A DNA stretch of 64,000 nucleotides, taken from assembly GCA_944319915.1 (NCBI GenBank), contig CALUEY010000001.1, positions 124,001 to 188,000 on the forward strand. Reading direction: 5' to 3'. The notes under the pieces were generated by a model that worked only from the letters and a program-made list of their open reading frames with translations, did no database searches and had not been told where the DNA came from. Source of the DNA: an uncultured Prevotella sp. Its GTDB lineage: Bacteria; Bacteroidota; Bacteroidia; Bacteroidales; Bacteroidaceae. The position numbers and the translations under genes are program-made. Below are positions 8,838-29,335 of the stretch, piece by piece. Numbering within the stretch: position 1 is the first letter of the stretch; every line of letters begins with the position of its first letter.

Positions 8838-10505
8838 TTATGCTTTCTTCGTGTTTATCACCGAGCGCATCTTGCGTAGGTTGTCGTAGCTTATGTTCAT
8901 CATCGCCATTATTTCCTCTTGCGTCTTGCCCATGTGCTCCAGTATGAGGAATACTGTTTGCCTGTATGTAAGCCCCGTGTAGCCGGTTTCTACCACGAGC
9001 CCGAAGTCCTTGTTTATTGCCATGTAGTATTCGGCAAACCAGCGCATCTCCCTTTTCTTCCACTGTGCTATGCTTTCGCCGCGTGCCACCTGGCCGCTCA
9101 AGCGGTGGCCGTTGGCCATGGTCTCCTCCATGGCCTTGTTCAGCTCCTCCTCGGCTTTTTTGTGCCGAGCCTCCATCTTGCGCAATTCCTTTTGGTGTGC
9201 GTCGGCCTCTTTCTTGCCCATGGCCCTTAGTGCCGCGAGTTTCACCTTTAGTGCATTCAGCTTACTTTCGCTCTTCTCAACCTGTATCCTTGCCTGTCGC
9301 AGGTCATGCCTTGTGCGCTTAATGTATGCCACAGTTGCCAAGGCAGCCGCCCCAGCAACAATGACCAGTGCCGTCGCTATGACTATCCAGTTGCCGCGCT
9401 CTGCCTCGGCATCGCGCTCTGCTTGCAGCAGCTCGTGCGCCGCCATCACCCCTGCTATGCTGTCAGCCGTGTTCTTCCGCGTAAGGCTGTCGCGCATGGT
9501 TGTTGCCATTTTCAAGAGTCGTGCCGCTTCGCCGCTGTTGCCCTCCTTTTGCTCGTATTCGGCCAAGTCTTCCGTCATGCTTATGGTGCGCATGAGTTCT
9601 GCGCTCGCCTTTATGCCACGCTTCAGCAGCCCCATGGCCTCTTCTGTGCGCCCCTCCCTGTATGCGATGGCCCCGAGCAAGTGGTATGCGTTGGCATACG
9701 GCCTTATCTCCAACGCTTTCCTTGCATATTCCTTCGCCTTGGTAGGGTCGCGGAACTCGTAGGCGGCCCCGATATTGGTCAGTGCAAACATCTTGCTGCT
9801 GTCTGGTAAATATCTTATTAGTGGAATATATTTCTCAGTGTAGAATATGGCACTGTCTTGATTCCCGAATCTGGCATATATTGCTGCAAAGTTGCTATAG
9901 CAGTACGTGAGCAGTTCCTTGTTCCCCGATTTCTCGCCAAAGTATATGGCTTTCCTCCCGTTTTCAAGTGCGAGGTGCCGTTCCCCGCCATTTATGCAAG
10001 TAGAGGTGATCGTTATGTATATCCTGCATTTAAGCGTGTTGTCGTTTGTATTAGAGGCCGCGCTTTCTGCCATGGTCATGCACCTTACGCATTCTTTTAT
10101 GTTGCCGTTCAAGTCCGCAATTCGCCCTTTTACGTAATACGCCCTTGCGAGTTTGCTGTAATCTTTTGCCTTCCCATAAAATTCAATGCTTTGGTTTATG
10201 CCAGCGTATTCTGGCGGAGCTATGTTCTTCCTGAACATTATTTCTGCCTGAAGCAAGTTGTAATATGCCAGTTCGCTTTTACTTTGTATTTCCCATTTTC
10301 TCAGTTTTCTCAATGATTGATATGCCGAATCGGTCTTGCCGTGTGTTAATAAGGTGTCTATTAGGGCTGTGTCGGCATGGATTTGCTCATCCTGTCGGTA
10401 TATACTCAATGCAGTGCAAACGACAACAATGGTAGCAATTGCCGCCAAGAAATATTTTTTATGCCATAGGGTTGTGCCTTTGGTCTTTTTGTTCATATCT
10501 GTCAT
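8838..10505 (-). CDS. Membrane TPR protein with C-terminal helix-turn-helix-like end
   Basis: This 555-residue protein has a membrane anchor at about residues 15-35, degenerate tetratricopeptide repeats at about 40-330, a second membrane segment (WIVIATALVIVAGAAALATV), a charged coiled coil, and a C-terminal segment LTYRQTVFLILEHMGKTQEE followed by NISYDNLRKMRSVIN that resembles LuxR/sigma region 4 helices. This layout fits a Bacteroidota signal-responsive TPR regulator. ATG 10505 or ATG 10496 could be the start. It is divergent from the RiPP operon, so control of that operon is a reasonable inference. No ligand or target is known. Confidence 0.8.
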   Translation of the reverse strand: MTDMNKKTKGTTLWHKKYFLAAIATIVVVCTALSIYRQDEQIHADTALIDTLLTHGKTDSAYQSLRKLRKWEIQSKSELAYYNLLQAEIMFRKNIAPPEYAGINQSIEFYGKAKDYSKLARAYYVKGRIADLNGNIKECVRCMTMAESAASNTNDNTLKCRIYITITSTCINGGERHLALENGRKAIYFGEKSGNKELLTYCYSNFAAIYARFGNQDSAIFYTEKYIPLIRYLPDSSKMFALTNIGAAYEFRDPTKAKEYARKALEIRPYANAYHLLGAIAYREGRTEEAMGLLKRGIKASAELMRTISMTEDLAEYEQKEGNSGEAARLLKMATTMRDSLTRKNTADSIAGVMAAHELLQAERDAEAERGNWIVIATALVIVAGAAALATVAYIKRTRHDLRQARIQVEKSESKLNALKVKLAALRAMGKKEADAHQKELRKMEARHKKAEEELNKAMEETMANGHRLSGQVARGESIAQWKKREMRWFAEYYMAINKDFGLVVETGYTGLTYRQTVFLILEHMGKTQEEIMAMMNISYDNLRKMRSVINTKKA

Positions 10506-10524
10506 GACTTAGATTAACTTCTGC

Positions 10525-10556
10525 AAAAGTATGAAATTCATGCGGAATGGCCAAAT
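10525..10556 (-). promoter_or_regulatory. Bacteroidota-type promoter for the TPR regulator
   Basis: Read on the minus strand, the -7 element is TACTTTTG (10532-10525) and a TTTG lies at 10556-10553, separated by 20 nt. This matches TTTG-N19-21-TAnnTTTG. Transcription would begin about 10-15 bases before the start codon. Confidence 0.7.
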
Positions 10557-10681: not shown

Positions 10682-10713
10682 TTTGGAGCATTTGATTATA
10701 AACCATAAATTTG
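10682..10713 (+). promoter_or_regulatory. Bacteroidota-type promoter for the RiPP operon
   Basis: TTTG at 10682-10685 and TAAATTTG at 10706-10713 are separated by 20 nt, an exact fit to the Bacteroidota sigma consensus. It sits about 25 bases before the DUF3244-like gene and back to back with the TPR gene promoter in a 233-bp divergent region. Confidence 0.75.
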
Positions 10714-10738
10714 CCTGCAAGAATCAATTGAATATATT

Positions 10739-11113
10739 ATGACACGAAACGTAATTTTTATTATTGCAGCACTGCTATTGGTGCAATTCTTTTGCTCACC
10801 TATGCAGGCAAGTGATGAGGTGACAAAGACAAAGGATATTGGTTTCAAGCCAAATTGGAATGTTGGTTCTAACCCAGTGGAGGTGTTCCACGAAAGCGGC
10901 AGCCGCACCATTACCATTGCTTTCAACCATCAGTCCGACGATGTTCGCGTGAAGATATTCAAGGAGGGCAAGCTCGTTGTAGATGACAAGGAGACGGCAA
11001 ACAAGAACACTGTCATAGGATATACCTTTGCCGGGACTGATGCCGCCCAATGCACAGTTGTCGTAGAGACTGATGGAGTGCCGCGCTTGGCCGATTCTGT
11101 ACAGATAGAGTGA
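10739..11113 (+). CDS. Small secreted DUF3244-like protein
   Basis: The 124-residue protein has a signal peptide (MTRNVIFIIAALLLVQFFC) and one predicted beta-sandwich domain with the alternating pattern RTITIAFNHQSDDVRVKIFK and a later CTVVVETDG, resembling DUF3244 proteins of Bacteroidales. The family function is unknown. It is 45 bases upstream of the radical SAM gene, so it is probably in the same transcript. A similar protein lies beside the other TPR regulator at 27262-27618. Confidence 0.7.
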   Translation: MTRNVIFIIAALLLVQFFCSPMQASDEVTKTKDIGFKPNWNVGSNPVEVFHESGSRTITIAFNHQSDDVRVKIFKEGKLVVDDKETANKNTVIGYTFAGTDAAQCTVVVETDGVPRLADSVQIE

Positions 11114-11158
11114 GGGCAATATGCTCAGTGTAAGAACGGATAATAAAGCTTTTTAGTT

Positions 11159-12478
11159 ATGGATAAATTAAGCTACTATAATGTCGTTGTGCCGTATGGT
11201 GCATATAAGTTAGTGTATAACACATTGACAAACTCACTTGTTTGCTTGACGGCTGACGAACACTCTGTTATGTCAGGATACACAGACAACCTTGACGGCT
11301 TTAGTCATGATTATCCGTCTTTGTATGATAGCTTCAAGAAAGCAGGGTTCATTGTTGATGGCGATTTCGATGAACTTGCTTACATAAGGCTTCAGAACAA
11401 CAAGGTGGTTTATGAAGACCAACGCTATCATGTAACCATAAACCCAACGCTCGACTGTAACCTACGGTGCTGGTATTGCTCCACGGAATACGCCAAGGCA
11501 CAGCATAAAGGATGCATGACGGCAGAAACAATTGAGGCTGTAAAGGCTCATCTTGCATACCTTGTGGAAAAGAAACGCATAACGGCCTTGCACTTGGATT
11601 GGTTTGGTGGAGAGCCATTGATGTATTTCGACGGCATTGTAGACCCGGTTTCTTCCGTTGCCAACGAACTGGTAAGCAAACATGGCATTGCGTTCACTCA
11701 GCACGTGACCACAAACTCTGTTTTCATGACTGAAGAGATGATGCAAAGGATGGCCGAACTGCATTTCACGAGCTTCCAGATACCGCTTGACGGCAATGAG
11801 CGGCATCACAATGTCATAAAGCGGCAAGCTGACAAGAGCGGCACTTTCAAGGCAATAGTCTGTAACATCAACAAGTTGCCGGAGATGATACCTGATGCGC
11901 ATATAATCTTGCGGATAAACTTTGACAAGCAGACCTTGCGCGGCATAGAGGATGTGATACCTCTTTTTACGGAGAATGCCAAGCAGCACATTACGGTCGA
12001 TTTCCAAAAGGTTTGGCAGATTAAATGCAATGAGGATGACTTGGAGCGCTTGCGCATGGTGCGCAAGGCGTTTACGGACAATGGCTTTTGTGCGGACTTT
12101 TGGGTGTTTACTCCAAGAATGTTCCATCGGTGTTATGCAGACAGACTGCATCATTATATCATTAACTATGATGGGAGGGTGTTTAAGTGTACTGCGCAGG
12201 ATTATGGTAACGACAAGGTGTTAGGTCGCTTGGAGCAGGATGGGCATATAGAATGGAACGATAAGCTGCGGTCGAGTTTGTTTTCTCACCCTACTTTTGA
12301 TAACGAGCGGTGCTTGGCCTGCAAGCTGTTGCCCATCTGCATGGGGCCATGCATAGCAAAGTGCAAGGAGGCTCGCGACAAAGGCTTTCCAATGCCATGC
12401 GTGGTTGAAAACTCCCAGTCTACGGTTGAGGAGTTTGTGGTGAGCGAGGCTTGCAGGCGGAAATTGCTGAATGGCTGA
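11159..12478 (+). CDS. Radical SAM/SPASM peptide maturase
   Basis: The 439-residue enzyme has the iron-sulfur motif CNLRCWYC (Cys100, Cys104, Cys107), the LDWFGGEPLMYFDG motif of the SAM-binding barrel, and a C-terminal SPASM-type cysteine set (Cys344, then Cys385, 388, 394, 398, 402, 414) for auxiliary clusters. Residues 1-95 form a separate domain like those preceding peptide-modifying radical SAM enzymes and may bind the leader. The likely substrate is the 56-residue precursor at 14639, with cysteine- or backbone-directed crosslinking. The chemistry (thioether, C-C or other) cannot be read from the sequence. Base composition is more AT-rich than the genes after 14980. Confidence 0.9.
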   Translation: MDKLSYYNVVVPYGAYKLVYNTLTNSLVCLTADEHSVMSGYTDNLDGFSHDYPSLYDSFKKAGFIVDGDFDELAYIRLQNNKVVYEDQRYHVTINPTLDCNLRCWYCSTEYAKAQHKGCMTAETIEAVKAHLAYLVEKKRITALHLDWFGGEPLMYFDGIVDPVSSVANELVSKHGIAFTQHVTTNSVFMTEEMMQRMAELHFTSFQIPLDGNERHHNVIKRQADKSGTFKAIVCNINKLPEMIPDAHIILRINFDKQTLRGIEDVIPLFTENAKQHITVDFQKVWQIKCNEDDLERLRMVRKAFTDNGFCADFWVFTPRMFHRCYADRLHHYIINYDGRVFKCTAQDYGNDKVLGRLEQDGHIEWNDKLRSSLFSHPTFDNERCLACKLLPICMGPCIAKCKEARDKGFPMPCVVENSQSTVEEFVVSEACRRKLLNG

Positions 12479-12543
12479 CTCTCGTAGGTTGCCTGTGTTG
12501 TTGGCTTCCAGCGGGATATGTTAGGTTTTAATACAAGAAATCT

Positions 12544-14613
12544 ATGCTGAGAATTGCTACCGTTTTGCTACTGAGCTTTGTCAACATCCTTGGTCTGTTG
12601 GCAGAGAGAGCCGACAGCGTGACTCGTGATTCCGTTGATGCACACCTTTCAGTGCGCGAGGTCACGGTCACTGGCTCGAACATGCAGAGGCAGCATGACG
12701 GCAGCTTGTGGATTTTCCCCAATGCATCACAGCGCAAGCATGCCGCCAATGGCTTTGGTGTGCTGCGCAACCTTATGCTGCCTGGCTTGCAGGTGGACGA
12801 AAAAGGCGGAAAAGTAAGCATGATGAGTGTCGAGGCTACCTTATATGTCAACGGGCAGCCTTGCGACATCAACGAGGTGAGCATGATGCGGCCGCAGGAC
12901 ATCTTGCGCATAGAGTATATGGATATGCCCGACGGCAAGTATGCCAACGACAAGTTCGCCATTAACTTTGTGCTGCGCACGTACCGTTATGGCGGTTATG
13001 TTTCCGCATCCGCAGAACAGATTGTTGGTTTCAGCTCGGGCTATTATTCTGCGGCAGCCACGCTCAGCAGCGGAAACATGACATACTCGTTGTTTGCCGG
13101 AGCGTCTTACAAGAACGTTGGTAGCGGCGAGACTGTAGGCTCAGAGCTTTACAAGTTGCCGGCAGGCAATGTTTTTCGTGAACGCAATGCCGCGCAGTCA
13201 CTTCGCAAAAACGATGAGTATGTGCAGTTTAGGGCGCAGAACAAAAGGGATAAGTCATATTGGGTGGGCAAGCTTACGCTATACAACAAGAGCACACCGT
13301 CGGATGCGGAAGAAGGGTGGCTGCGCGATGGCAGCTCGCTTTCGGAGTTCGGGGCAGTGACTTCGCGGCAGGGGTTGTCGCCGAAGATCGACTTCTCCGG
13401 GCAGGTGAGCTTGGCGGAATTCCACACACTCAACTATGCCATAAACGGCTCATATTCGCGCAACAGCTACGACCGCAACTACACTGAGGCCACGTTTGCC
13501 TCCGCAACCCATGCGGAGGAAGACGCGTACCGTTTCATGGCCGATGTCACGTACTCATACGCCAAGGGCAAGAATGCCTTTACGGGCATGGCAATCCACT
13601 ATCACGATGTATGGATTTCTTCTTACACAGGCGACAACCCTTTGTGGCAGCACTTGTGGAAAGGTGAGTCGCTGGCTCTTGTATCGTATACGCGGAAATT
13701 TGGGCGCAATCTCTCCCTGCGCCTGCGCACGGGCCTCGACTGGATGCAGTTCAGGCTGCACGGTAGCAGCAAGTTCAGCCAGCTTACCCCGCGGCTCAAT
13801 GTGGCCATGCAGTTGCGCCTGCATGACGGTCTGCTGTCGTGGCAGGCGTTTTATGCCAACCCCACTTACGGCATGAATGTACTGAACAATGCGCAGGTGG
13901 AAATGTCTCCCTACATGACCATGAGGGGAACGGGCAGCCTGCGCCGTGCGAGCAACGTTAACTCTAACATATATTACAGCCAGAATTTCGGCAAGCTCAG
14001 CGTCATGGCTAACCCGCAATATTTCTATGGCCACAACCTCGTGCTCAACAGCTATGGGCTTGTGGAAGATGGCTCACGGGTGCTGAAAACGTTTGCCAAC
14101 GACATTGAGATGCATGAAGTTTCGTTCTGGGGGAGCGTGTCTTACCGCCTTATGGACAAACTGCAAGTGAAATGCAATGGTGCCGTGTCGTATACGTCGT
14201 TGCGTGGTTCCACGTCAATGTCTCACACCCACTATGTGGGCTATGCAGGTGTATTGTACTATCTTGGCGACTTTATGCTGGCGGCCAATGTCACCTCTCG
14301 ACGGAAATTCATTGATTTCCGGAATACAGCCATCGTGACAGAGCCTATTGATTACGACTTCAGCTGCTCCTACAGCCACAAGGGATTTTTCGCGCAGTTG
14401 TATTTGGGCTGCCCGTTTGCCAAGCGGCGTACCCATCGTGTCACCGACACCGATGTATATTGGGCAGGCACGAGCACATTCGACAGAAGCCAGAGCCGCT
14501 TTGTTTCCATCTCGCTGCGATACACGTTTGATTTTGGCCGCAAGACCGATAGGATAAACGAAGAAATAGACCGCAATATAAACAGTGCTATCCTTACGAG
14601 TGGCACTGACTAA
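12544..14613 (+). CDS. Outer-membrane beta-barrel protein, TonB-receptor-like (first copy)
   Basis: The 689-residue protein has a signal peptide, a short plug-like domain (VTVTGSNMQ to about residue 150, including RPQDILRIEYMDMPDGKYA) and a long barrel of aromatic-rich strands ending YTFDFGRK. This fits the OMP_b-brl_3 (PF14905) type. The N-terminal carboxypeptidase-regulatory-like domain common in that family is missing and no clear TonB box is seen. It lies between the maturase and the precursor gene, so it probably serves as the outer-membrane step for the peptide, either exit or uptake. It is paralogous to 14980-17076. Confidence 0.85.
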   Translation: MLRIATVLLLSFVNILGLLAERADSVTRDSVDAHLSVREVTVTGSNMQRQHDGSLWIFPNASQRKHAANGFGVLRNLMLPGLQVDEKGGKVSMMSVEATLYVNGQPCDINEVSMMRPQDILRIEYMDMPDGKYANDKFAINFVLRTYRYGGYVSASAEQIVGFSSGYYSAAATLSSGNMTYSLFAGASYKNVGSGETVGSELYKLPAGNVFRERNAAQSLRKNDEYVQFRAQNKRDKSYWVGKLTLYNKSTPSDAEEGWLRDGSSLSEFGAVTSRQGLSPKIDFSGQVSLAEFHTLNYAINGSYSRNSYDRNYTEATFASATHAEEDAYRFMADVTYSYAKGKNAFTGMAIHYHDVWISSYTGDNPLWQHLWKGESLALVSYTRKFGRNLSLRLRTGLDWMQFRLHGSSKFSQLTPRLNVAMQLRLHDGLLSWQAFYANPTYGMNVLNNAQVEMSPYMTMRGTGSLRRASNVNSNIYYSQNFGKLSVMANPQYFYGHNLVLNSYGLVEDGSRVLKTFANDIEMHEVSFWGSVSYRLMDKLQVKCNGAVSYTSLRGSTSMSHTHYVGYAGVLYYLGDFMLAANVTSRRKFIDFRNTAIVTEPIDYDFSCSYSHKGFFAQLYLGCPFAKRRTHRVTDTDVYWAGTSTFDRSQSRFVSISLRYTFDFGRKTDRINEEIDRNINSAILTSGTD

Positions 14614-14638
14614 TGTTTAATCTTTAAAAATAACAATT

Positions 14639-14809
14639 ATGGAAATTAAAAGAAGGTTGGACGAACTGAGCATCATTCAGCGTCTAAGCGATGGGGAATC
14701 CCTCGCAGTTCTTGGTGGTTTGGGGGCTAATGGCGGATGCCAAGTGTCTCAAGATGGATGTGGTGGAAACAAAGTTTGTAGTGGTTGCAGTGTTAACTAT
14801 GGCTGTTGA
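14639..14809 (+). CDS. RiPP precursor peptide with double-glycine leader
   Basis: The 56-residue product starts MEIKRRLDELSIIQRLSDGE. The segment LSDGESLAVLGG (residues 16-27) matches the C39-processed leader consensus LSxxELxxIxGG at nearly all positions, so cleavage is predicted after Gly27. The 29-residue core contains five cysteines (34, 41, 47, 50, 56) among Gly, Ser and Asn. The leader also resembles the GG-Bacteroidales precursor group. It lies 25 bases after the first barrel gene and is followed by a terminator hairpin. An odd number of cysteines is notable for a crosslinked peptide. A second Gly-Gly at 32-33 is an alternative cleavage site that would leave Cys34 first. Confidence 0.85.
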   Translation: MEIKRRLDELSIIQRLSDGESLAVLGGLGANGGCQVSQDGCGGNKVCSGCSVNYGC

Positions 14810-14837
14810 TGATTTGCCAATATTCTCTTTCAGAAAT

Positions 14838-14868
14838 GAAGAAGTGCTTTCAGTGCTTCTTCATTTTT
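14838..14868 (+). terminator. Probable terminator after the precursor gene
   Basis: GAAGAAGTGCT pairs with AGTGCTTCTTC across a TTC loop (11 bp with two G-T pairs) and is followed by ATTTTT. It would end the transcript 29 bases after the precursor stop and separate it from the exporter half of the cluster. Confidence 0.65.
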
Positions 14869-14923
14869 GAAAGATTTTAATTTAACAACGTTAGTAGCAT
14901 TTGCGAAAAAGTAGTACAAAAGG

Positions 14924-14954
14924 TTTGGTTGGTAATGTTTTTTTTCTATCTTTG
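14924..14954 (+). promoter_or_regulatory. Bacteroidota-type promoter for the second barrel and exporter
   Basis: TTTG at 14924-14927 and TATCTTTG at 14947-14954 are separated by 19 nt, a full consensus match. The start codon at 14980 is about 20 bases beyond the predicted transcription start. The exporter half of the cluster therefore has its own promoter. Confidence 0.8.
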
Positions 14955-14979
14955 CATCTAAACCGTAAAACTGTTGCTT

Positions 14980-17076
14980 ATGAGGGATTTTTGCTTAATA
15001 ATTGTTGCGTTGCTGGCGTTTGCGGGCATTGAGGCTCGCGCTGCGGCTGCGGACAGCACGGCGCAGGCGGCAGGGCAGGACAGCATCTTTCGTGAAGTAG
15101 ACCTCGGTGGCGTTACCGTGGAGGGGCGCATGGCCATACAGAAGGACGACCACACCAACTATATGCCCACCAAGCGGCAGGTGGATGCCTCGGCCTCGGG
15201 CATAAGCCTGCTGGCGCGCATGATGATACCAAAGCTGCTGGTAGACCACATAGGCAAGACCGTGAAGAACGCCGACGGCACCGCCCCCACCATCTATATA
15301 GACAACCGCATGGCCGACGCCACAGAGGCCGACCGCTTGAGGCCCAAGGACATAGTGCGGGTGGAGTACTACGACCGCCCGTCGCCCGACTTCCCCGGCT
15401 CCCAAACCGTGCTCAACTTCATCACGCGCAAGTACGACCGCGGCGGCTACGTGGACTTGCGCACAAGTGCCTATGCCTACCCGTGGCCCGACTACGGCGA
15501 CTGTTCACTGCAGGCGAGCTTCGACGTTAACAAATTCAACGTAACCCTCTACGCAGGCTCCGACTTCTCAAGGGAGGATACTCCCGGCCCCACCGGCACT
15601 GAATACGTTGGCCTTGCCAATCCGTTTACCAAGCAGGCGACTGCCCTCGGCATGGAAACAAAAACGCGAAACCACTACGGCCTGCTGCGCACCAAGTACC
15701 GCACGGAAAAGACCACCGCCATTCTCGACCTTGGCTTTAGCTGGAGCGAGATGCCTACAAACCACGAGCGTACCTTGGTGAGCTACTCGCCACAGGCCTA
15801 TCCCGCATCCGACGCCGTGACCGATACGCGGAGCCGCAACGCCACGCCCTCGGCGCGCTTCTTCCTTGCGACGGAAGTGGCCAAGGGGCATAAGCTGCGG
15901 GTGGAGGCCAACGGCTGGTACGGCGACAACACCTATAGCCGAACATACACCGAGGGGGCGTTGCCCGCTGTCGTTACCGACTCGAAGGAAAAACAATACT
16001 GGGCTGAAGCCATGCTCAACTATAACGCCGACCTGAAGCACGACAACTCGATAGGGGCAATGCTGTATGGAAATTTCAGCAGCAACCGCACCACATACAC
16101 GGGTACCATGGCTGCCGACCAAAGGATTGATGACGGTGTGGTGCTGTTTGAACCCGGCTACTCGCACACTTTTGCCAAGCGGCTCATGCTTTATTTGCGC
16201 ATGGGGCTGTACTGGGACATCTACCGCGTGAAAGGCATTGGCACCGTGAGCAAGCTGCTGCCACGCCCCGGGGCAACCATAAACTACAAGATAAACGAAC
16301 GCAATTCGGTATATGCATATTGGTACATGGCGAGCAACGTGCCGCAGATGGCCAACTACAACAACACGGAGCAGCGCGTAAACCAGTACACCGTGCAGCG
16401 GGGCAACCCCCACTTGGACATAACCAAGGTGCATTTCGTAAACGCCTCATACAACCTTTCGCTCAAGAACGCCAACATCTCGGTATATGGCAGTTCCACG
16501 ATATATACCGACTACACGAAGCCTTACTACATGGATGAGGGCGGAACGCTGGTGAGCACCTACATTACCGACGGCAAGTATGTCTCTTATGTCGCCGGCG
16601 TGTCGGCCTCGCTGTTCTTCTTTAAGCGCTCGCTGCAGCTCACGCCCACGCTACAGTACTCGTGGCAGCGCATCACGGGCCTAAACTCCACCGATTCCGG
16701 CCGCCCGCTCTTCGCCCTCACAGGCAACTACTACATAAAGAACTTCAGCATCATGGCGCAGTACGTTACCAAGCGGCGCAGCATCATGTGGGGAAGCTAC
16801 ATCCATGAGATGCCCCAATTCTACATGGTGGAGCTGTCGTGGCACCACAAGGGGCTGCACGTGGCAGTGGGCAGCCAGCTCTTCCTTGACGACAGCTTCG
16901 CCTTGCGCACCTGGGCCGACCACGGCGTTTATCGCTTCGACAATAGCACCACAACCTCTCTCAACGGCCGTAAGGCTTACGTCAGCCTGTCGTACAGCTT
17001 CGACTTCGGGCGCAAGAAAGTGGAGCGCGAGAAGCTCAACGTGGAGAAAGGCTCGTCGGGAATAATGCGACTGTGA
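14980..17076 (+). CDS. Outer-membrane beta-barrel protein, TonB-receptor-like (second copy)
   Basis: ATG 14980 is chosen over the TTG at 14974 because it gives a clean signal peptide (MRDFCLIIVALLAFAG). The 698-residue protein has a plug-like region (LGGVTVEGRMAIQ, RPKDIVRVEYYDRPSPDFPG, LNFITRKYDRGGYV) and a barrel ending SYSFDFGRKK, like the copy at 12544. It is far more GC-rich than that copy, so the two may have different histories. The C39 exporter gene follows after 62 bases, which suggests a joint role in moving the processed peptide across the envelope. Neither barrel is a recognisable TolC. Confidence 0.85.
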   Translation: MRDFCLIIVALLAFAGIEARAAAADSTAQAAGQDSIFREVDLGGVTVEGRMAIQKDDHTNYMPTKRQVDASASGISLLARMMIPKLLVDHIGKTVKNADGTAPTIYIDNRMADATEADRLRPKDIVRVEYYDRPSPDFPGSQTVLNFITRKYDRGGYVDLRTSAYAYPWPDYGDCSLQASFDVNKFNVTLYAGSDFSREDTPGPTGTEYVGLANPFTKQATALGMETKTRNHYGLLRTKYRTEKTTAILDLGFSWSEMPTNHERTLVSYSPQAYPASDAVTDTRSRNATPSARFFLATEVAKGHKLRVEANGWYGDNTYSRTYTEGALPAVVTDSKEKQYWAEAMLNYNADLKHDNSIGAMLYGNFSSNRTTYTGTMAADQRIDDGVVLFEPGYSHTFAKRLMLYLRMGLYWDIYRVKGIGTVSKLLPRPGATINYKINERNSVYAYWYMASNVPQMANYNNTEQRVNQYTVQRGNPHLDITKVHFVNASYNLSLKNANISVYGSSTIYTDYTKPYYMDEGGTLVSTYITDGKYVSYVAGVSASLFFFKRSLQLTPTLQYSWQRITGLNSTDSGRPLFALTGNYYIKNFSIMAQYVTKRRSIMWGSYIHEMPQFYMVELSWHHKGLHVAVGSQLFLDDSFALRTWADHGVYRFDNSTTTSLNGRKAYVSLSYSFDFGRKKVEREKLNVEKGSSGIMRL

Positions 17077-17095
17077 TGTCTTATACCCCTCATAA

Positions 17096-17132
17096 CTCCC
17101 AGCTCTCCCAAAGTTACCAAATCTCCCAGCTC
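17096..17132 (+). repeat. CTCCCA-rich tract before the exporter start
   Basis: Several CTCCCA/CTCCCAG units occur in a 37-base pyrimidine-rich stretch that ends six bases before the exporter ATG. Similar tracts precede the start codons at 31958 (minus) and 49051 (plus). Confidence 0.6.
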
Positions 17133-17138
17133 TGAATC

Positions 17139-19334
17139 ATGCCCCGCTTTCCGCTGTATCTCCAGCACGATGCCATGCAGTGCGGCGTGGCCTGCCTCCG
17201 CATGGTGCTCGAACACTATGGCCGCCATGTGTCCATGGCCGGGGTTGAGGCCCTTTGCCCGCCCACGGCCGAGGGAGCGTCGCTGCTGGGGCTGAGCCGG
17301 GCAGCCGAAACGATGGGGCTGCACACTGTGGCGGGCCGCCTTTCGCTCGACGCGCTTGGCAAGGTGCCGCTGCCCGCCATCCTCCATTGGCGGCAGCAGC
17401 ACTTCGTGGTGCTTTACCGCATAAAGGGCAACGGCTGCCGGGCGCGCTACTGCCTGGCCGACCCCGCCCGGGGCCTTGTGGCGTGCGGGCGCGGCGATAT
17501 GGAGGAGTGCTGGCTCAGCGCGCGCTCCGGTGGCGAGGACAGGGGCATAGCCTTGCTCTTGGAACCGTCGGCGGGCTTCATGCCCGACGGCGGCGCAGGG
17601 CGCGCCCCCGGGCCGCGCTCACTGCGCTTCCTGCTGGGCTACATGGGGCGCCACCGCCGCGCCCTGGCCCACGTGGCGGCGGGGCTGGCCGTGGGCAGTG
17701 CCATACAGTTGCTGCTGCCGCTGCTCACCCAAGCCATAGTGGACCGTGGCATCGCCCTGCGCGACATAGGCTTCGTTTGGCTCGTGCTCGCCGGGCAGCT
17801 CATGCTCACGCTCAGCTCCACGGCCATCGACTTCGTGCGCCGCTGGCTGCTGCTCCACGTGAGCATGAGGGTCAACCTGGCCATCGTCTCCGACTTCCTC
17901 TGTAAGCTCTTCACCCTGCCCATGGCTTTCTTCGACACCAAGCACACCGGCGACATCATGCAGCGCATGGGCGACCACGACCGCGTGGAGCAGTTTCTCA
18001 CCGGCGGCGCGCTCACGGTGCTGTTCTCCGCCGCCACGTTCTGCGTGTTCGGCTTCGTGCTGCTGGCCTACGATGCCGTGGTGTTCGGCGTGTTCATGGC
18101 CTTCAGCCTGCTTTACGGCCTGTGGATAAGGGCTTTCCTGGGGCGCCGCCGCGTGCTCGACCGCGAGCGCTTTGGCAAGGCCGCCGAGGCGCAGGACACC
18201 ACGTGGCAGCTCGTCACCACCATGCAGGAGGCCAAGCTGCAGGACTGCCGCCTGCGCCGCCGCCGCGAGTGGGAGGAGGCTGAGGCCGCCCTCTACGGCG
18301 TGCGCATGAAGGGCCTGAAGCTGCAGCAGGCCGAGGAGGCCGGCGGAGTGCTCATCAACGGCGTGAAGAACGTGGTGGTGACGGTGCTTGCAGCCATGGC
18401 CGTGGTCGACGGGCGGATGACCCTCGGGCAGATGCTGGCCGTGCAGTACATCATCGGCCAGTTGTCGGCCCCGGTGGAGAGCCTGCTTGGCTTCGTCTAT
18501 TCGCTGCAGGACGTAAGGCTGAGCCTTGAGCGCATAGGCGAGGTGCACCAGGCCAAGGGCGAGGTGCGCCAGGGCGCGCTCACGGCCTTCGCCACTGCTG
18601 AGCGCACGGTGAGCCTGCAAGGCGTAACCTTCCGCTACGACCCCAACGCCCCCGCCCCCACGCTCAGCGGCGTAAGCCTCGACATTGCCGAGGGCAAGAC
18701 CACGGCCATCGTCGGCGTGAGCGGCAGTGGCAAGACCACGCTGCTGAAGCTGCTGCTGGGCTACTATGCGCCCGAGGCCGGCACCATAACCGTGGGCGGG
18801 CGGCCGCTCTCAGACTACGACCCGCAGTGGTGGCGCAGCCGCCTTGGCGTGGTGATGCAGGACGGTGTGGTTTTCTCGGAGTCGATAGCCCGCAACATAG
18901 CCGTGGGCGACGGCGAGGTGGACATGGAGCGGCTGCTGCGCGCCGCACGTATGGCGCGCGTGGACGAGTTTGCAGAGCGCCTGCCCCTTAAGTACGACAC
19001 CCGCGTGGGGCGCAACGGCATGGGCCTTAGCGCCGGCCAGCGGCAGCGCATACTCATAGCGCGGGCCATTTACAAGGAGCCGGAGTTCATCTTCATGGAT
19101 GAGGCCACCAACTCGCTCGACGCCAGCAACGAGCGGGCCATAGTGGAGGGGCTTGGCGCATTCATGCGCGGGCGCACCGTGCTCGTGATAGCCCACAGGC
19201 TGAGCACCGTGCGCGGCGCCGACCGCATAGTGGTCATGGAGCGTGGGCGCATCGTGGAGCAAGGCAGTCACGAGGAGCTTGCGGCTCTGCGCGGGGCTTA
19301 TTACAGGTTGGTCAAGAATCAGTTGGAACTATGA
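17139..19334 (+). CDS. Peptidase-containing ABC exporter (C39 type)
   Basis: The 731-residue protein has three parts. Residues 1-150 are a C39 cysteine protease with Gln9, catalytic Cys15 (AMQCGVACLRMV), His88 (HFVVL) and Asp108 (ADPARG). Residues 160-470 are the membrane domain. The C-terminal part is an ATPase with Walker A at 526-534 (GVSGSGKTT), signature LSAGQ at 630-634 and Walker B FIFMDE at 650-655. Such proteins cut double-glycine leaders in the cytoplasm and export the core peptide. The precursor at 14639 is the obvious cargo. The stop overlaps the next start (ATGA). Confidence 0.95.
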   Translation: MPRFPLYLQHDAMQCGVACLRMVLEHYGRHVSMAGVEALCPPTAEGASLLGLSRAAETMGLHTVAGRLSLDALGKVPLPAILHWRQQHFVVLYRIKGNGCRARYCLADPARGLVACGRGDMEECWLSARSGGEDRGIALLLEPSAGFMPDGGAGRAPGPRSLRFLLGYMGRHRRALAHVAAGLAVGSAIQLLLPLLTQAIVDRGIALRDIGFVWLVLAGQLMLTLSSTAIDFVRRWLLLHVSMRVNLAIVSDFLCKLFTLPMAFFDTKHTGDIMQRMGDHDRVEQFLTGGALTVLFSAATFCVFGFVLLAYDAVVFGVFMAFSLLYGLWIRAFLGRRRVLDRERFGKAAEAQDTTWQLVTTMQEAKLQDCRLRRRREWEEAEAALYGVRMKGLKLQQAEEAGGVLINGVKNVVVTVLAAMAVVDGRMTLGQMLAVQYIIGQLSAPVESLLGFVYSLQDVRLSLERIGEVHQAKGEVRQGALTAFATAERTVSLQGVTFRYDPNAPAPTLSGVSLDIAEGKTTAIVGVSGSGKTTLLKLLLGYYAPEAGTITVGGRPLSDYDPQWWRSRLGVVMQDGVVFSESIARNIAVGDGEVDMERLLRAARMARVDEFAERLPLKYDTRVGRNGMGLSAGQRQRILIARAIYKEPEFIFMDEATNSLDASNERAIVEGLGAFMRGRTVLVIAHRLSTVRGADRIVVMERGRIVEQGSHEELAALRGAYYRLVKNQLEL

Positions 19335-19516
19335 GTGGAGGCAACAGGGCCATGTCCAAAAGGGAGGGCCGCACAAGCGGCAGCGCGCCGGAGCTGCGCG
19401 ACGAGGGCCTGCGCCACGTTGTGGGTGTCATGCCCCGGGCGCTGTTCGTGTGGAGCGCGGTGGCTTTGCTTGCCGGCATTGCCGTAATTGTTGCGGCTGT
19501 GCGCATATTGTTGTGA
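19331..19516 (+). CDS. Small membrane protein resembling the anchor of an HlyD adaptor
   Basis: The 61-residue protein begins inside the exporter stop codon (ATGA overlap), so it is translationally coupled. Residues 24-60 read ELRDEGLRHVVGVMPRALF and then a single membrane helix. This follows the N-terminal pattern of Bacteroidota HlyD-type adaptors (LRsEevqdimGxxP, then a helix). The coiled-coil, lipoyl and barrel domains are absent, and no continuation is found in any frame after the TGA. It is either a decayed adaptor or a purposely small exporter partner. Confidence 0.6.
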   Translation: MSGGNRAMSKREGRTSGSAPELRDEGLRHVVGVMPRALFVWSAVALLAGIAVIVAAVRILL

Positions 19517-19652: not shown

Positions 19653-19817
19653 CAGGCGGGTTTGCAACCCGCCTGCATCCTGTTGCGGGTTTGCAACCCG
19701 CGTCAGCCCATTTCTGGAGGGGGTGTGCCGCAAGGATGCGGACCTCCTAAGGTCGCGTAGCTTTTCCTTCCCCCGGGTAGCAGGCCTGGCCACAGATGGC
19801 GCGGGTTGCAAGCCCGC
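19653..19817. repeat. Three copies of a GCGGGTTTGCAACCCGC hairpin
   Basis: CAGGCGGGTTTGCAACCCGC with its CTG end occupies 19653-19675, the same core recurs at 19685-19701, and GCGGGTTGCAAGCCCGC lies at 19801-19817. Each is a near-perfect palindrome around TGCA. Confidence 0.75.
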
Positions 19818-25267: not shown

Positions 25268-25297
25268 CAAATGTACTGAAAATATTGAAATGCGCAA
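25268..25297 (-). promoter_or_regulatory. Promoter for gdhA
   Basis: On the minus strand TACATTTG (25275-25268) is preceded by TTTG (25297-25294) with an 18-nt spacer, one short of the usual range. The predicted leader is about 50-60 bases. Confidence 0.6.
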
Positions 25298-25411
25298 AGT
25301 GAAAGAGCGAAAAATTTCGCGCTTTCACTTTCTTTTTGTTTGTTTCAGCTTGTTTTTGCATCTCTGCCCTGCTGCCTTTTGTCGTAGGCAACCCTCGGTT
25401 GTTGCTGTTGA

Positions 25412-27757: not shown

Positions 27758-29335
27758 TCACAGATTGTCAATTACGCTGTCCCAGTCGGTTGCGCTGCCC
27801 TTCTTCCCGAATGCACGGAAGTATAGGCGGCTTCTTGCCGAGGAGAGGCTCGACAGTGCGAGGTTGGTAAGCTGCGCGATGTCCTTTAGCTTCAGCTTTA
27901 TTTTTAGCAGCAGGCATATATGGTAGTCGTTTTTGCTCATGTTGCACATGGCGTACAGCTTTTCGCGGAATCCAGGGTATTGTTCGTTTACCAGTGCATC
28001 GAGCTGTCGCCAGTCATCGACTTTCAAGTTCCTGCCAATCCTCAAGAGTGCGTTTATGTGTTTGTAGATTTCTGACCCAACTATCATTTGGTGTGTTGGC
28101 TTTGCTATTTGTTCCTCACGCTGTTCTTCGTAATTCTTAATCTCTGTGGACAGTTTTCGGTTTCTCTTTAATGTCTTGGTAAGAAAGTATGCCAAGGCCG
28201 ATATGATGGCTAATCCGAGGAATGCCAGCCCTATAAGCCTATAACTGGCGATTGTGCTTTTGGCTTTTAGCCTCTCGTTCTCTTTCTCTCTCAATGAGTA
28301 GTCATAAAGAGCGCCAGTGTGTGCAATGGCTTCTGTGGCGTTGTTGTCATATATTGAGTCTCTGAGTTCATTGCTTTCATTATAATATTTTGTGGCCTCC
28401 TTGTATTTTCCTTTGTCGGAAAGATATTCTGCCATTTTCATGAATGCGTAACATTTTGCTTTGGTTGAATTTGTTTTGGATAGCAAGCAATAGTAAGTCA
28501 TTGCAGAGTCTGGATGTCCTGTGGCTTTATGCAGATGTGCCGCTATTGAGTATACGGCCTCGTGTTCGAGTGTGTCGCCATATTCCAGTGCTGGCCTCAG
28601 GTGCTTCCACGCCAGCTCGTACTTGCCTTGGTTGACAAAAAGGCCCGCCATTTGGGTGTGGATGCTGGCCTCCATCTCATGGATGCCGTTCTGTTCGGCA
28701 ATGCGCAAGCCCTTTGTGTAATACATCAGCGCGCTGTCGGGCAGGCCGAGGTCTTCGTAGGCCCGTGCCATGTCGCGCAGCACGTAGGCCATGCGGCGAG
28801 GCGATGCGAAGCCCTTGTGCAGGCGGTAAGATTGCCGGAAGGCTTCGAGGGCGCGGCTGTTGAGCCTCATGTCGGAGTAGAGGTAGCCCATCTGCGTGTA
28901 AGCCTTGCACAGTAGCAGGCGGTCGCGCAGGGTGTCGGCTGCGGCAATGGCTTCGAGGTAGCAGTTTATGGCCTGCGGCGCGTCGTTCATCTCGGAGTAC
29001 ACCCGCCCTGCAGCGTAGTAGGCGCGGGGCAGCAGGCGGTGGTCGCCATCGTGCTCGTAGTGGCTGAGCAGCGGGCGCACGGCGGAGTCGGAGCTTGGCG
29101 TAAGGTACAGTCGGTCGGCAGTTTCAAGGCACAGTAGGCGGTAGAACATCCGCGCGTCCTCGGCCCACGAGGCTGTGTCCTTTGCCATTTTTTCCAATAG
29201 CAGCTCCGCGCTGTCGGGCCGTTTGGCGACCATGCTGTCGGCCCGGAGCAGTGCTTGCGGGTATCTGTGGTGTCCGCAGGCGGCCAGTAGCAGCAGGGCG
29301 AGCATGGCGATTATTACGGTTTGTGCCTGCTTCAT
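27758..29335 (-). CDS. TPR lipoprotein regulator with C-terminal helix-turn-helix-like end
   Basis: The 525-residue protein has a lipoprotein-like signal (LALLLLAACG), several TPR units at about residues 90-330 (for example AYTQMGYLYSDMRLNSRALE), a membrane segment (LIGLAFLGLAIISALAYFL), a coiled coil, and a C-terminal segment MSKNDYHICLLLKIKLKLKD followed by LSSARSRLYFRAFG. That end resembles the DNA-binding end of Bacteroidota TPR regulators. The anchor and the HTH-like end lie on either side of a membrane helix, so a signal-transducing role is inferred. A TATATTTG -7 box ends only four bases before the ATG. Confidence 0.8.
   Translation of the reverse strand: MKQAQTVIIAMLALLLLAACGHHRYPQALLRADSMVAKRPDSAELLLEKMAKDTASWAEDARMFYRLLCLETADRLYLTPSSDSAVRPLLSHYEHDGDHRLLPRAYYAAGRVYSEMNDAPQAINCYLEAIAAADTLRDRLLLCKAYTQMGYLYSDMRLNSRALEAFRQSYRLHKGFASPRRMAYVLRDMARAYEDLGLPDSALMYYTKGLRIAEQNGIHEMEASIHTQMAGLFVNQGKYELAWKHLRPALEYGDTLEHEAVYSIAAHLHKATGHPDSAMTYYCLLSKTNSTKAKCYAFMKMAEYLSDKGKYKEATKYYNESNELRDSIYDNNATEAIAHTGALYDYSLREKENERLKAKSTIASYRLIGLAFLGLAIISALAYFLTKTLKRNRKLSTEIKNYEEQREEQIAKPTHQMIVGSEIYKHINALLRIGRNLKVDDWRQLDALVNEQYPGFREKLYAMCNMSKNDYHICLLLKIKLKLKDIAQLTNLALSSLSSARSRLYFRAFGKKGSATDWDSVIDNL

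Follow-up and report, generated by a model that had tools for sequence, protein, structure and literature searches.

Bacteroidales clusters for ribosomally synthesized and post-translationally modified peptides (RiPPs) raise the question of how their products cross the outer membrane, which is stated as open in passages of PMC10352776. As described there, the biosynthetic gene clusters BGC6-9 have a C39 peptidase-containing ABC transporter (PCAT) and an outer-membrane protein, with no membrane fusion protein (MFP) identified in the sections on these clusters, and the article asks whether transport differs in clusters without an MFP. Bacteroidetes graspetide loci, in the corresponding sections of PMC8939145, have as neighbors a C39 exporter, a SPASM enzyme, HlyD, tetratricopeptide repeat (TPR) proteins, and OMP_b-brl_3/TonB-linked proteins, and an export role is suggested there for the proteins related to TonB-dependent receptors. 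In Myxococcus xanthus, PMC6434023 reports that Oar, a plugged TonB-dependent transporter, is required for PopC secretion. Here, we analyze a RiPP cassette in a 64,000-nt stretch of an uncultured Prevotella sp. genome (contig CALUEY010000001.1, positions 124,001 to 188,000; hereafter, the window). The cassette encodes a radical SAM maturase, a precursor, a C39 exporter, and two outer-membrane barrels, plus a 61-aa protein that, judged from its sequence, is a reduced MFP retaining the cytoplasmic motif and transmembrane (TM) helix alone. In most relatives with a barrel near the exporter, the adaptor is likewise shrunken or missing, which suggests that the barrel does the tunnel's job.

The window cassette resembles BGC6-9 as these are described: PCAT and outer-membrane protein are shared, a radical SAM enzyme is further shared with BGC6-8, and most precursors of the nine clusters in PMC10352776 have GG motifs. 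As given in that text, BGC6-8 use YcaO and BGC9 uses LanM, neither of which is recognized in the window cassette. Where its transport sections leave the missing MFP open, we identify a reduced MFP and link it to barrel presence. The graspetide loci differ in their ATP-grasp modification, and no adaptor reduction is described in the sections of PMC8939145 on them. Colicin V type secretion, as outlined in PMC10352776, likewise pairs a C39 exporter with an adaptor, but it uses an MFP and TolC, whereas the window has a TM-only MFP; the genome's seven HlyD_3 and 15 OEP (TolC) domain matches all lie outside the window. Oar and PopC, in the portion of PMC6434023 cited above, are like the step that we propose in that a plugged TonB-dependent transporter is needed for cargo secretion, and unlike it in that the cargo is a protein and Oar carries a CarboxypepD_reg extension; by Pfam, this extension occurs in some of 40 aligned barrel relatives, and none was detected in the two window barrels. 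An earlier note on this DNA, made from the sequence alone, had called the combination little characterized in Bacteroidota. That statement needs narrowing, since C39 exporters with outer-membrane proteins already appear in the cited sections of PMC10352776 and PMC8939145, the latter suggesting export. The parts list is known in kind; our additions to it are the reduced MFP and a graded loss of the adaptor that goes with barrels. No earlier report of graded MFP loss with barrels was found in the literature searched, which was largely open-access articles without preprints or supplements.

The 61-aa protein (P0007; hereafter, mini-MFP) has the N-terminal cytoplasmic motif and TM helix of HlyD-type MFPs. 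It ends with the predicted TM helix, and no periplasmic beta domain, lipoyl domain, or hairpin is present in it; it is thus a reduced relative of MFPs and not a complete MFP. Its ORF opens in a 4-nt overlap with the exporter stop. Our scan of named genomes for exporters gave 502 confirmed places, and the best 80 of these form the 80 named loci used below; the closest among them, L152 from another uncultured Prevotella (exporter 76% identical), encodes a 59-aa homolog in the identical 4-nt overlap. With ten full and half forms as the profile, the window protein scores E 0.0016 among 5,493 open reading frames (ORFs), and 0 of 10,000 shuffles reach its score. A wider profile of 96 short and half forms, from which the window and L152 proteins were excluded, finds these two at E 1.3e-5 and 7.1e-7, respectively (24,755 ORFs), with 0 of 20,000 region-wise shuffles reaching either score. 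Forms of 48-88 aa lie 3' of 35 out of 65 named exporters (65 of the 79 exporters of named loci, the others being short of flank; close relatives kept in). Mini-MFPs look to be under selection: dN/dS is below 0.5 in all 63 usable pairs out of 237 (median 0.17; pairs share members), the other 174 having been set aside because dS or dN was saturated or unusable. No mini-MFP scanned has a Pfam or NCBIfam match above cut-off, and for this reason a mini-MFP profile would be a useful marker of such clusters in genomes. The earlier note covered the region in which this ORF lies, and the ORF did not enter its reasoning.

HlyD-type MFPs found 3' of the counted exporters come in graded sizes (323-445, 219-244, 154-181, and 47-88 aa), which we classed as full-length (at least 300 aa), mid-size (200-299 aa), half-size (100-199 aa), and mini (<100 aa). 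Most start with a cytoplasmic segment like IELRSEKVRxIIGxxPP, nine positions of which are invariant across 17 half-size forms, followed by one TM helix. Judging from the HlyD matches of two half-size forms and a model of one, these forms are MFPs that have no hairpin. Residues 70-158 of the L046 form correspond to HlyD positions 317-414 (E 3.9e-8) and residues 65-156 of the L184 form to positions 306-405 (E 2.7e-6), so both match the C-terminal HlyD part directly after the TM helix. As modeled, the L184 form consists of two helices plus a beta domain and has no hairpin (mean pLDDT 85; 54-58 in the first 20 residues). A fold search with its beta part gives matches to the MFPs Spr0693, MacA, and BesA (E 9e-5 to 1e-3) and a weak one to HlyD of HlyB/D (E 4e-3). 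In L039 (10618-11013), L062, and L069, the protein encoded 3' of the exporter is another one, 126-145 aa long, which has a hydrophobic segment at its N-terminus but no ELRSEK motif; it is possibly a second kind of reduced adaptor.

To relate adaptor size to barrel presence, we used 146 exporters with enough flank, reduced to 121 by removing 25 that were >90% identical to another, and counted a barrel as nearby if it lay within 6 kb on the same strand. A barrel is nearby for 44 of 45 exporters with a mini adaptor, 31 of 33 with a half-size, and 5 of 5 with a mid-size one, but for only 5 of 20 with a full-length adaptor; where no adaptor was found, the count is 16 of 18, and two of these 18 (L076 and L152) later gained a mini form via the wider profile. 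Taken together, 96 of the 101 distinct exporters with an adaptor <300 aa or none found have a barrel nearby, and the comparison of reduced with full adaptors gives 80/83 vs 5/20 (Fisher p 2.6e-11). L032 and L074, two loci that have a maturase but no barrel, carry full adaptors of 432 and 439 aa. Loci chosen by exporter similarity alone (L092-L151) show the same pattern, with a barrel at 25/28 having a reduced or no adaptor vs 4/15 having a full one (p 5.9e-5). This speaks against the link being an artefact of maturase-based choice, but few independent events underlie it on the tree, so it is short of an established rule. We regard the adaptor/barrel pattern as strong, its replicates being few.

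The two barrels are paralogs, in agreement with the earlier note, and are 24% identical. Barrel 2 is modeled as a plugged TonB-dependent-transporter fold: its predicted structure has a plug within a large barrel (mean pLDDT 87), and the best solved matches in a fold search are TonB-dependent receptors, while a sequence search against solved structures gave no match. Barrel 2 itself has no Pfam match; among 40 aligned members, 24 match OMP_b-brl_3, five TonB_dep_Rec, and two Plug. Barrel 1 includes a TonB-box-like strand, EVTVTG, read by eye, and its energy coupling is putative. Matches of barrel 1 to DUF2712 and of barrel 2 to CofD fell below cut-off and were taken as chance.

Conserved synteny in related genomes, which the earlier note had proposed as a check, is evident. 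Within the family, 44 of 399 genomes encode a relative of the maturase at E <= 1e-40, as do 19 of 393 drawn from the order (own genome in both counts). With synteny classes defined as single-linkage BLAST clusters, 39 of 40 maturase neighborhoods fetched from the family include the barrel class and 29 the exporter class, several neighborhoods being cut by contig ends; the sole one without a barrel is L032. Several named Bacteroidales loci, among them L154, L177, L201, and L206, repeat the gene order TPR - maturase - barrel - exporter - reduced MFP. Cultured commensals in which maturase, barrel, exporter, and reduced MFP are all present include Phocaeicola sartorii (L165, with a 56-aa form) and Bacteroides muris (L176, with a 157-aa form). 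The best 80 of the 502 exporter places include Prevotella, Segatella, Bacteroides, Phocaeicola, Tannerella, Dysgonomonas, Proteiniphilum, Muribaculaceae, and others, and one is a metagenome-assembled genome labeled Eubacteriaceae. In another exporter survey, at most two candidates were scored per genome and 60 of its places were fetched besides those in the maturase loci, which leaves weaker exporters under-represented. The two barrels of L152 share about 52% and 51% identity with barrel 2; any maturase or precursor there is out of view because the contig begins just before the first barrel. Synteny thus supports well the earlier claim that the genes serve one peptide, and we are highly confident that the cassette genes form one system.

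All the parts named in the earlier note (maturase, precursor, C39 exporter, and two barrels) are present in the window. The leader of the 56-residue precursor (P0004) ends LSDGESLAVLGG and agrees with the double-glycine rule at L(-12), E(-8), V(-4), and GG (-2, -1); at -7 it has S where the rule wants a hydrophobic residue. The predicted core after Gly27 is 29 aa with five Cys. Across the 80 named loci, a simple leader rule picks out 63 of 757 sense short ORFs vs 5 of 857 antisense ones, and 35 of the 42 named loci having a maturase include such a candidate. The median number of Cys after GG is 4 at loci with a maturase (45 candidates) vs 1.5 at loci without (18 candidates), and precursor cores differ widely among loci in sequence and Cys number.

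Maturase P0002 has the CxxxCxxC motif and SPASM cysteines of radical SAM/SPASM RiPP maturases, as the earlier note had stated. The former are C100/104/107 and the latter C325, C344, C385, C388, C394, C398, and C414, and each is retained in 96-100% of 113 aligned maturases (close relatives kept in). The protein matches Pfam Radical_SAM (E 1.9e-14); its score against Pfam SPASM is under the cut-off (16.4 vs 21.5 bits), and that against the NCBIfam SPASM domain TIGR04085 is over it (42.2 vs 27 bits). Its best NCBIfam relative is the Cys-every-fifth maturase CefB (NF038107; residues 3-400), although 155.7 bits is far under the curated cut-off of 600 for equivalog membership, and the Cys spacing of the window precursor is 7, 6, 3, 6, not every fifth. 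A literature search on Cys-every-fifth/CefB gave nothing relevant among the matches listed. By sequence, the closest solved structure is the distant CteB (PDB 5wgg; E 4.4e-13, residues 95-400), named as a ranthipeptide maturase in the relevant part of PMC10352776; the chemistry of the window product is predicted from the family. As a side observation, an approximately 800-aa protein of a glycosyltransferase class (c3) adjoins the maturase in L055 (7205-9631) and in relatives such as L033, L037, L038, L056, L058, L062, L066, and L069. The L055 protein has family-2 glycosyltransferase domains and, in its C-terminal half, a LanC-like match below cut-off; this class is perhaps a glycosylation branch of the system.

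Exporter P0006 has the domains of a PCAT, namely Peptidase_C39 (E 1e-26) with its Cys/His/Asp plus ABC membrane and ATPase domains, and over residues 7-726 it matches the solved bacteriocin transporter 4ry2 (E 2e-98). Cys15, His88, and Asp108, which the earlier note had named for what it called a complete C39 exporter, are invariant in nine aligned exporters.

The divergent TPR gene upstream, which lies outside the region treated in the earlier note, probably belongs to the cassette, judging from its predicted product and its position. The product matches TPR_12 (E 1.8e-7) and has an N-terminal hydrophobic segment, a predicted periplasmic TPR domain, and, by hydropathy, a TM helix at ~374-392, followed by a cytoplasmic coiled coil and a helix-turn-helix (HTH)-like end, the HTH being read by eye. 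Regulator-like genes of at least 400 aa within 9 kb lie upstream of 21 of 48 exporters vs downstream of 1 of 35. The genome has four matches to the regulator, itself included; a second homolog was observed in the window ~17 kb away, at 27758-29335 on the minus strand (E 4.7e-12).

Altogether, these results can be read as a RiPP secretion cassette with the barrels as its outer-membrane export step, a reading that we hold to be evenly poised between right and wrong. In the cytosol, the maturase would crosslink the precursor with its five Cys, most likely with thioether bonds as its family suggests; the C39 domain would then cleave at the double-glycine site, and transport of the core to the periplasm would fall to the ABC part. 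The mini-MFP may stay an exporter subunit via its cytoplasmic motif and TM helix, a role suggested by its homology, and could not by itself build a closed tunnel because it has no periplasmic part reaching TolC. The plugged TonB-dependent-transporter-like barrels might carry the peptide over the outer membrane, as is reported of Oar with PopC in Myxococcus, and the TPR/TM/HTH protein probably adjusts expression by periplasmic sensing, perhaps of the peptide itself. More tentatively, and with somewhat more room for doubt than for belief, we propose a distinct Gram-negative peptide route, widespread in Bacteroidales, in which a C39 exporter with a stub adaptor hands over to an outward plugged TonB-dependent transporter that replaces MFP-TolC, with a periplasmic TPR/HTH feedback loop. 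Should the barrel take the place of the tunnel, such clusters would define a two-step export route, testable gene by gene in cultured commensals, and would be a second kind of case beside Oar, the one outward-working TonB-dependent transporter in the literature consulted.

A number of points weigh against this reading. The exporter tree has about five adaptor-state changes and three independent pairs on supported branches; in random pairings among the 121 exporters, the barrel follows expectation in 2.0, runs against it in 0.0, and shows no difference in 0.9 (1.9, 0.1, and 1.0, respectively, in the exporter-chosen analysis), and the sign test is not significant, nor can it reach significance with so few independent pairs. 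Sampling favors the clade to which the window exporter belongs, and with a barrel profile made from maturase loci, a nearby generic transporter could count as a barrel. Five of the 20 full-length adaptors do have a barrel nearby; among four maturase-linked full-length ones, two (L061 and L139) do; and the maturase co-occurs with reduction as well (63/101 vs 4/20 for full-length). The solved structures matching the barrel fold are uptake receptors, and the class is known mostly for import. The HlyD_3 and OEP matches elsewhere in the genome mean that an adaptor could act in trans. BesA of Borrelia has no hairpin at all, yet it counts among the periplasmic adaptors in the pertinent section of PMC8277102, so hairpin loss alone is compatible with an outer-membrane channel, a point that concerns the half-size more than the TM-only forms. 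Among half-size forms, that of L158 has no HlyD match, and the L184 fold search lists unrelated helicases too (E 3e-4). The suggestion in the earlier note that outer-membrane passage falls to the barrels gains indirect support, in that adaptors are mostly shrunken or not found beside barrels, and falls short of proof, given the import-class fold and the few independent changes.

An alternative, which we regard as unlikely though by no means negligible, is that the barrels are receptors re-importing the secreted peptide, alone or metal-bound, via TonB, with export by an adaptor and TolC encoded elsewhere. The fold of plugged TonB-dependent transporters and the HlyD_3 and OEP matches in the genome would suit such receptors, the Cys-rich core could bind metal, and the periplasmic TPR regulator could read imported peptide; however, neither the shrinkage or absence of most adaptors where a barrel lies near the exporter nor the selection on the shrunken adaptor would be explained. 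The same adaptor reduction and barrel partnership fit equally well with a peptide that is kept in the periplasm or held at the surface by the barrel, e.g., as a gating ligand, so that free release is unneeded and no tunnel is kept. The TPR domain, predicted to be periplasmic, is consistent with this as well, but cores that vary so widely in sequence and Cys number would be more usual for released peptides, and we consider retention improbable.

The few independent changes on the tree, and the low score of P0007 with the profile of full and half forms alone, would also be expected if the small downstream ORF were a chance or decayed gene, the adaptor simply absent, and the barrel association a matter of shared ancestry without function. 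This is very hard to reconcile with 48-88 aa forms recurring 3' of more than half of the named exporters counted, with their low dN/dS, and with the stronger score of P0007 in the wider profile; a tBLASTn search for MFP remnants 3' of the window exporter gave none significant among the matches listed (best E 0.2). Export across the outer membrane by the barrels remains our preferred reading of the cassette, whose features are collected in Table 1.

Table 1. Features of the RiPP cassette in the window, with positions counted from the first nucleotide of the window.
Feature	Position	Strand	Basis
Divergent TPR regulator	8838..10505	-	TPR_12 match, hydropathy, position near exporters
Bacteroides-type -33/-7 promoter pattern of regulator	10524..10555	-	pattern match
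Bacteroides-type promoter pattern of unit 1	10682..10713	+	pattern match
Small secreted protein, 124 aa	10739..11113	+	signal-like N-terminus
Radical SAM/SPASM peptide maturase P0002, 439 aa	11159..12478	+	domain and sequence matches
Outer-membrane barrel 1, paralog of barrel 2	12544..14613	+	barrel-class BLAST cluster, sequence identity
RiPP precursor P0004, 56 aa	14639..14809	+	double-glycine leader; predicted C39 cut after Gly27
Terminator-like hairpin 3' of precursor	14827..14873	+	hairpin in sequence
Bacteroides-type promoter pattern of unit 2	14924..14954	+	pattern match
Outer-membrane barrel 2	14980..17076	+	N-terminal plug (~residues 52-152 of modeled chain) and large barrel
C39 peptidase-containing ABC exporter P0006, 731 aa	17139..19334	+	domains, catalytic residues
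Mini-MFP P0007, 61 aa	19331..19516	+	cytoplasmic motif ELRDEGLRHVVGVMP and one TM helix; profile search

The cassette is probably transcribed as two units, because two promoter patterns and the terminator-like hairpin divide it: the promoter of the small secreted gene would also serve the maturase, barrel 1, and the precursor, and the second unit would comprise barrel 2, the exporter, and the 61-aa ORF. The pattern TTTG-N19-21-TAnnTTTG, which we take to be the Bacteroides-type -33/-7 promoter consensus, has four matches in the window vs 0.33 expected; the fourth, at 25268-25298, is away from the cassette. The most likely start of barrel 2 is the ATG at the position listed. Three small ORFs scanned against PHROGs yielded weak matches at best, and a match of P0001 to CopK was below cut-off and taken as chance.

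Small secreted proteins recur in relatives between the regulator and the precursor or maturase. Some at the equivalent place are DUF3244 proteins, those of L163 and L177 scoring above its cut-off; the window protein has no DUF3244 match and one clear homolog among the loci, in L095 (E 3.7e-7).

Just 3' of the cassette, the near-palindrome GCGGGTTTGCAACCCGC occurs at 19656-19672, 19685-19701, and 19801-19817. Allowing at most one mismatch, it has 79 matches in the genome (37 forward, 42 reverse) vs 0 for a reversed control. Copies often cluster, with neighbors oppositely oriented, as in a REP-like family.

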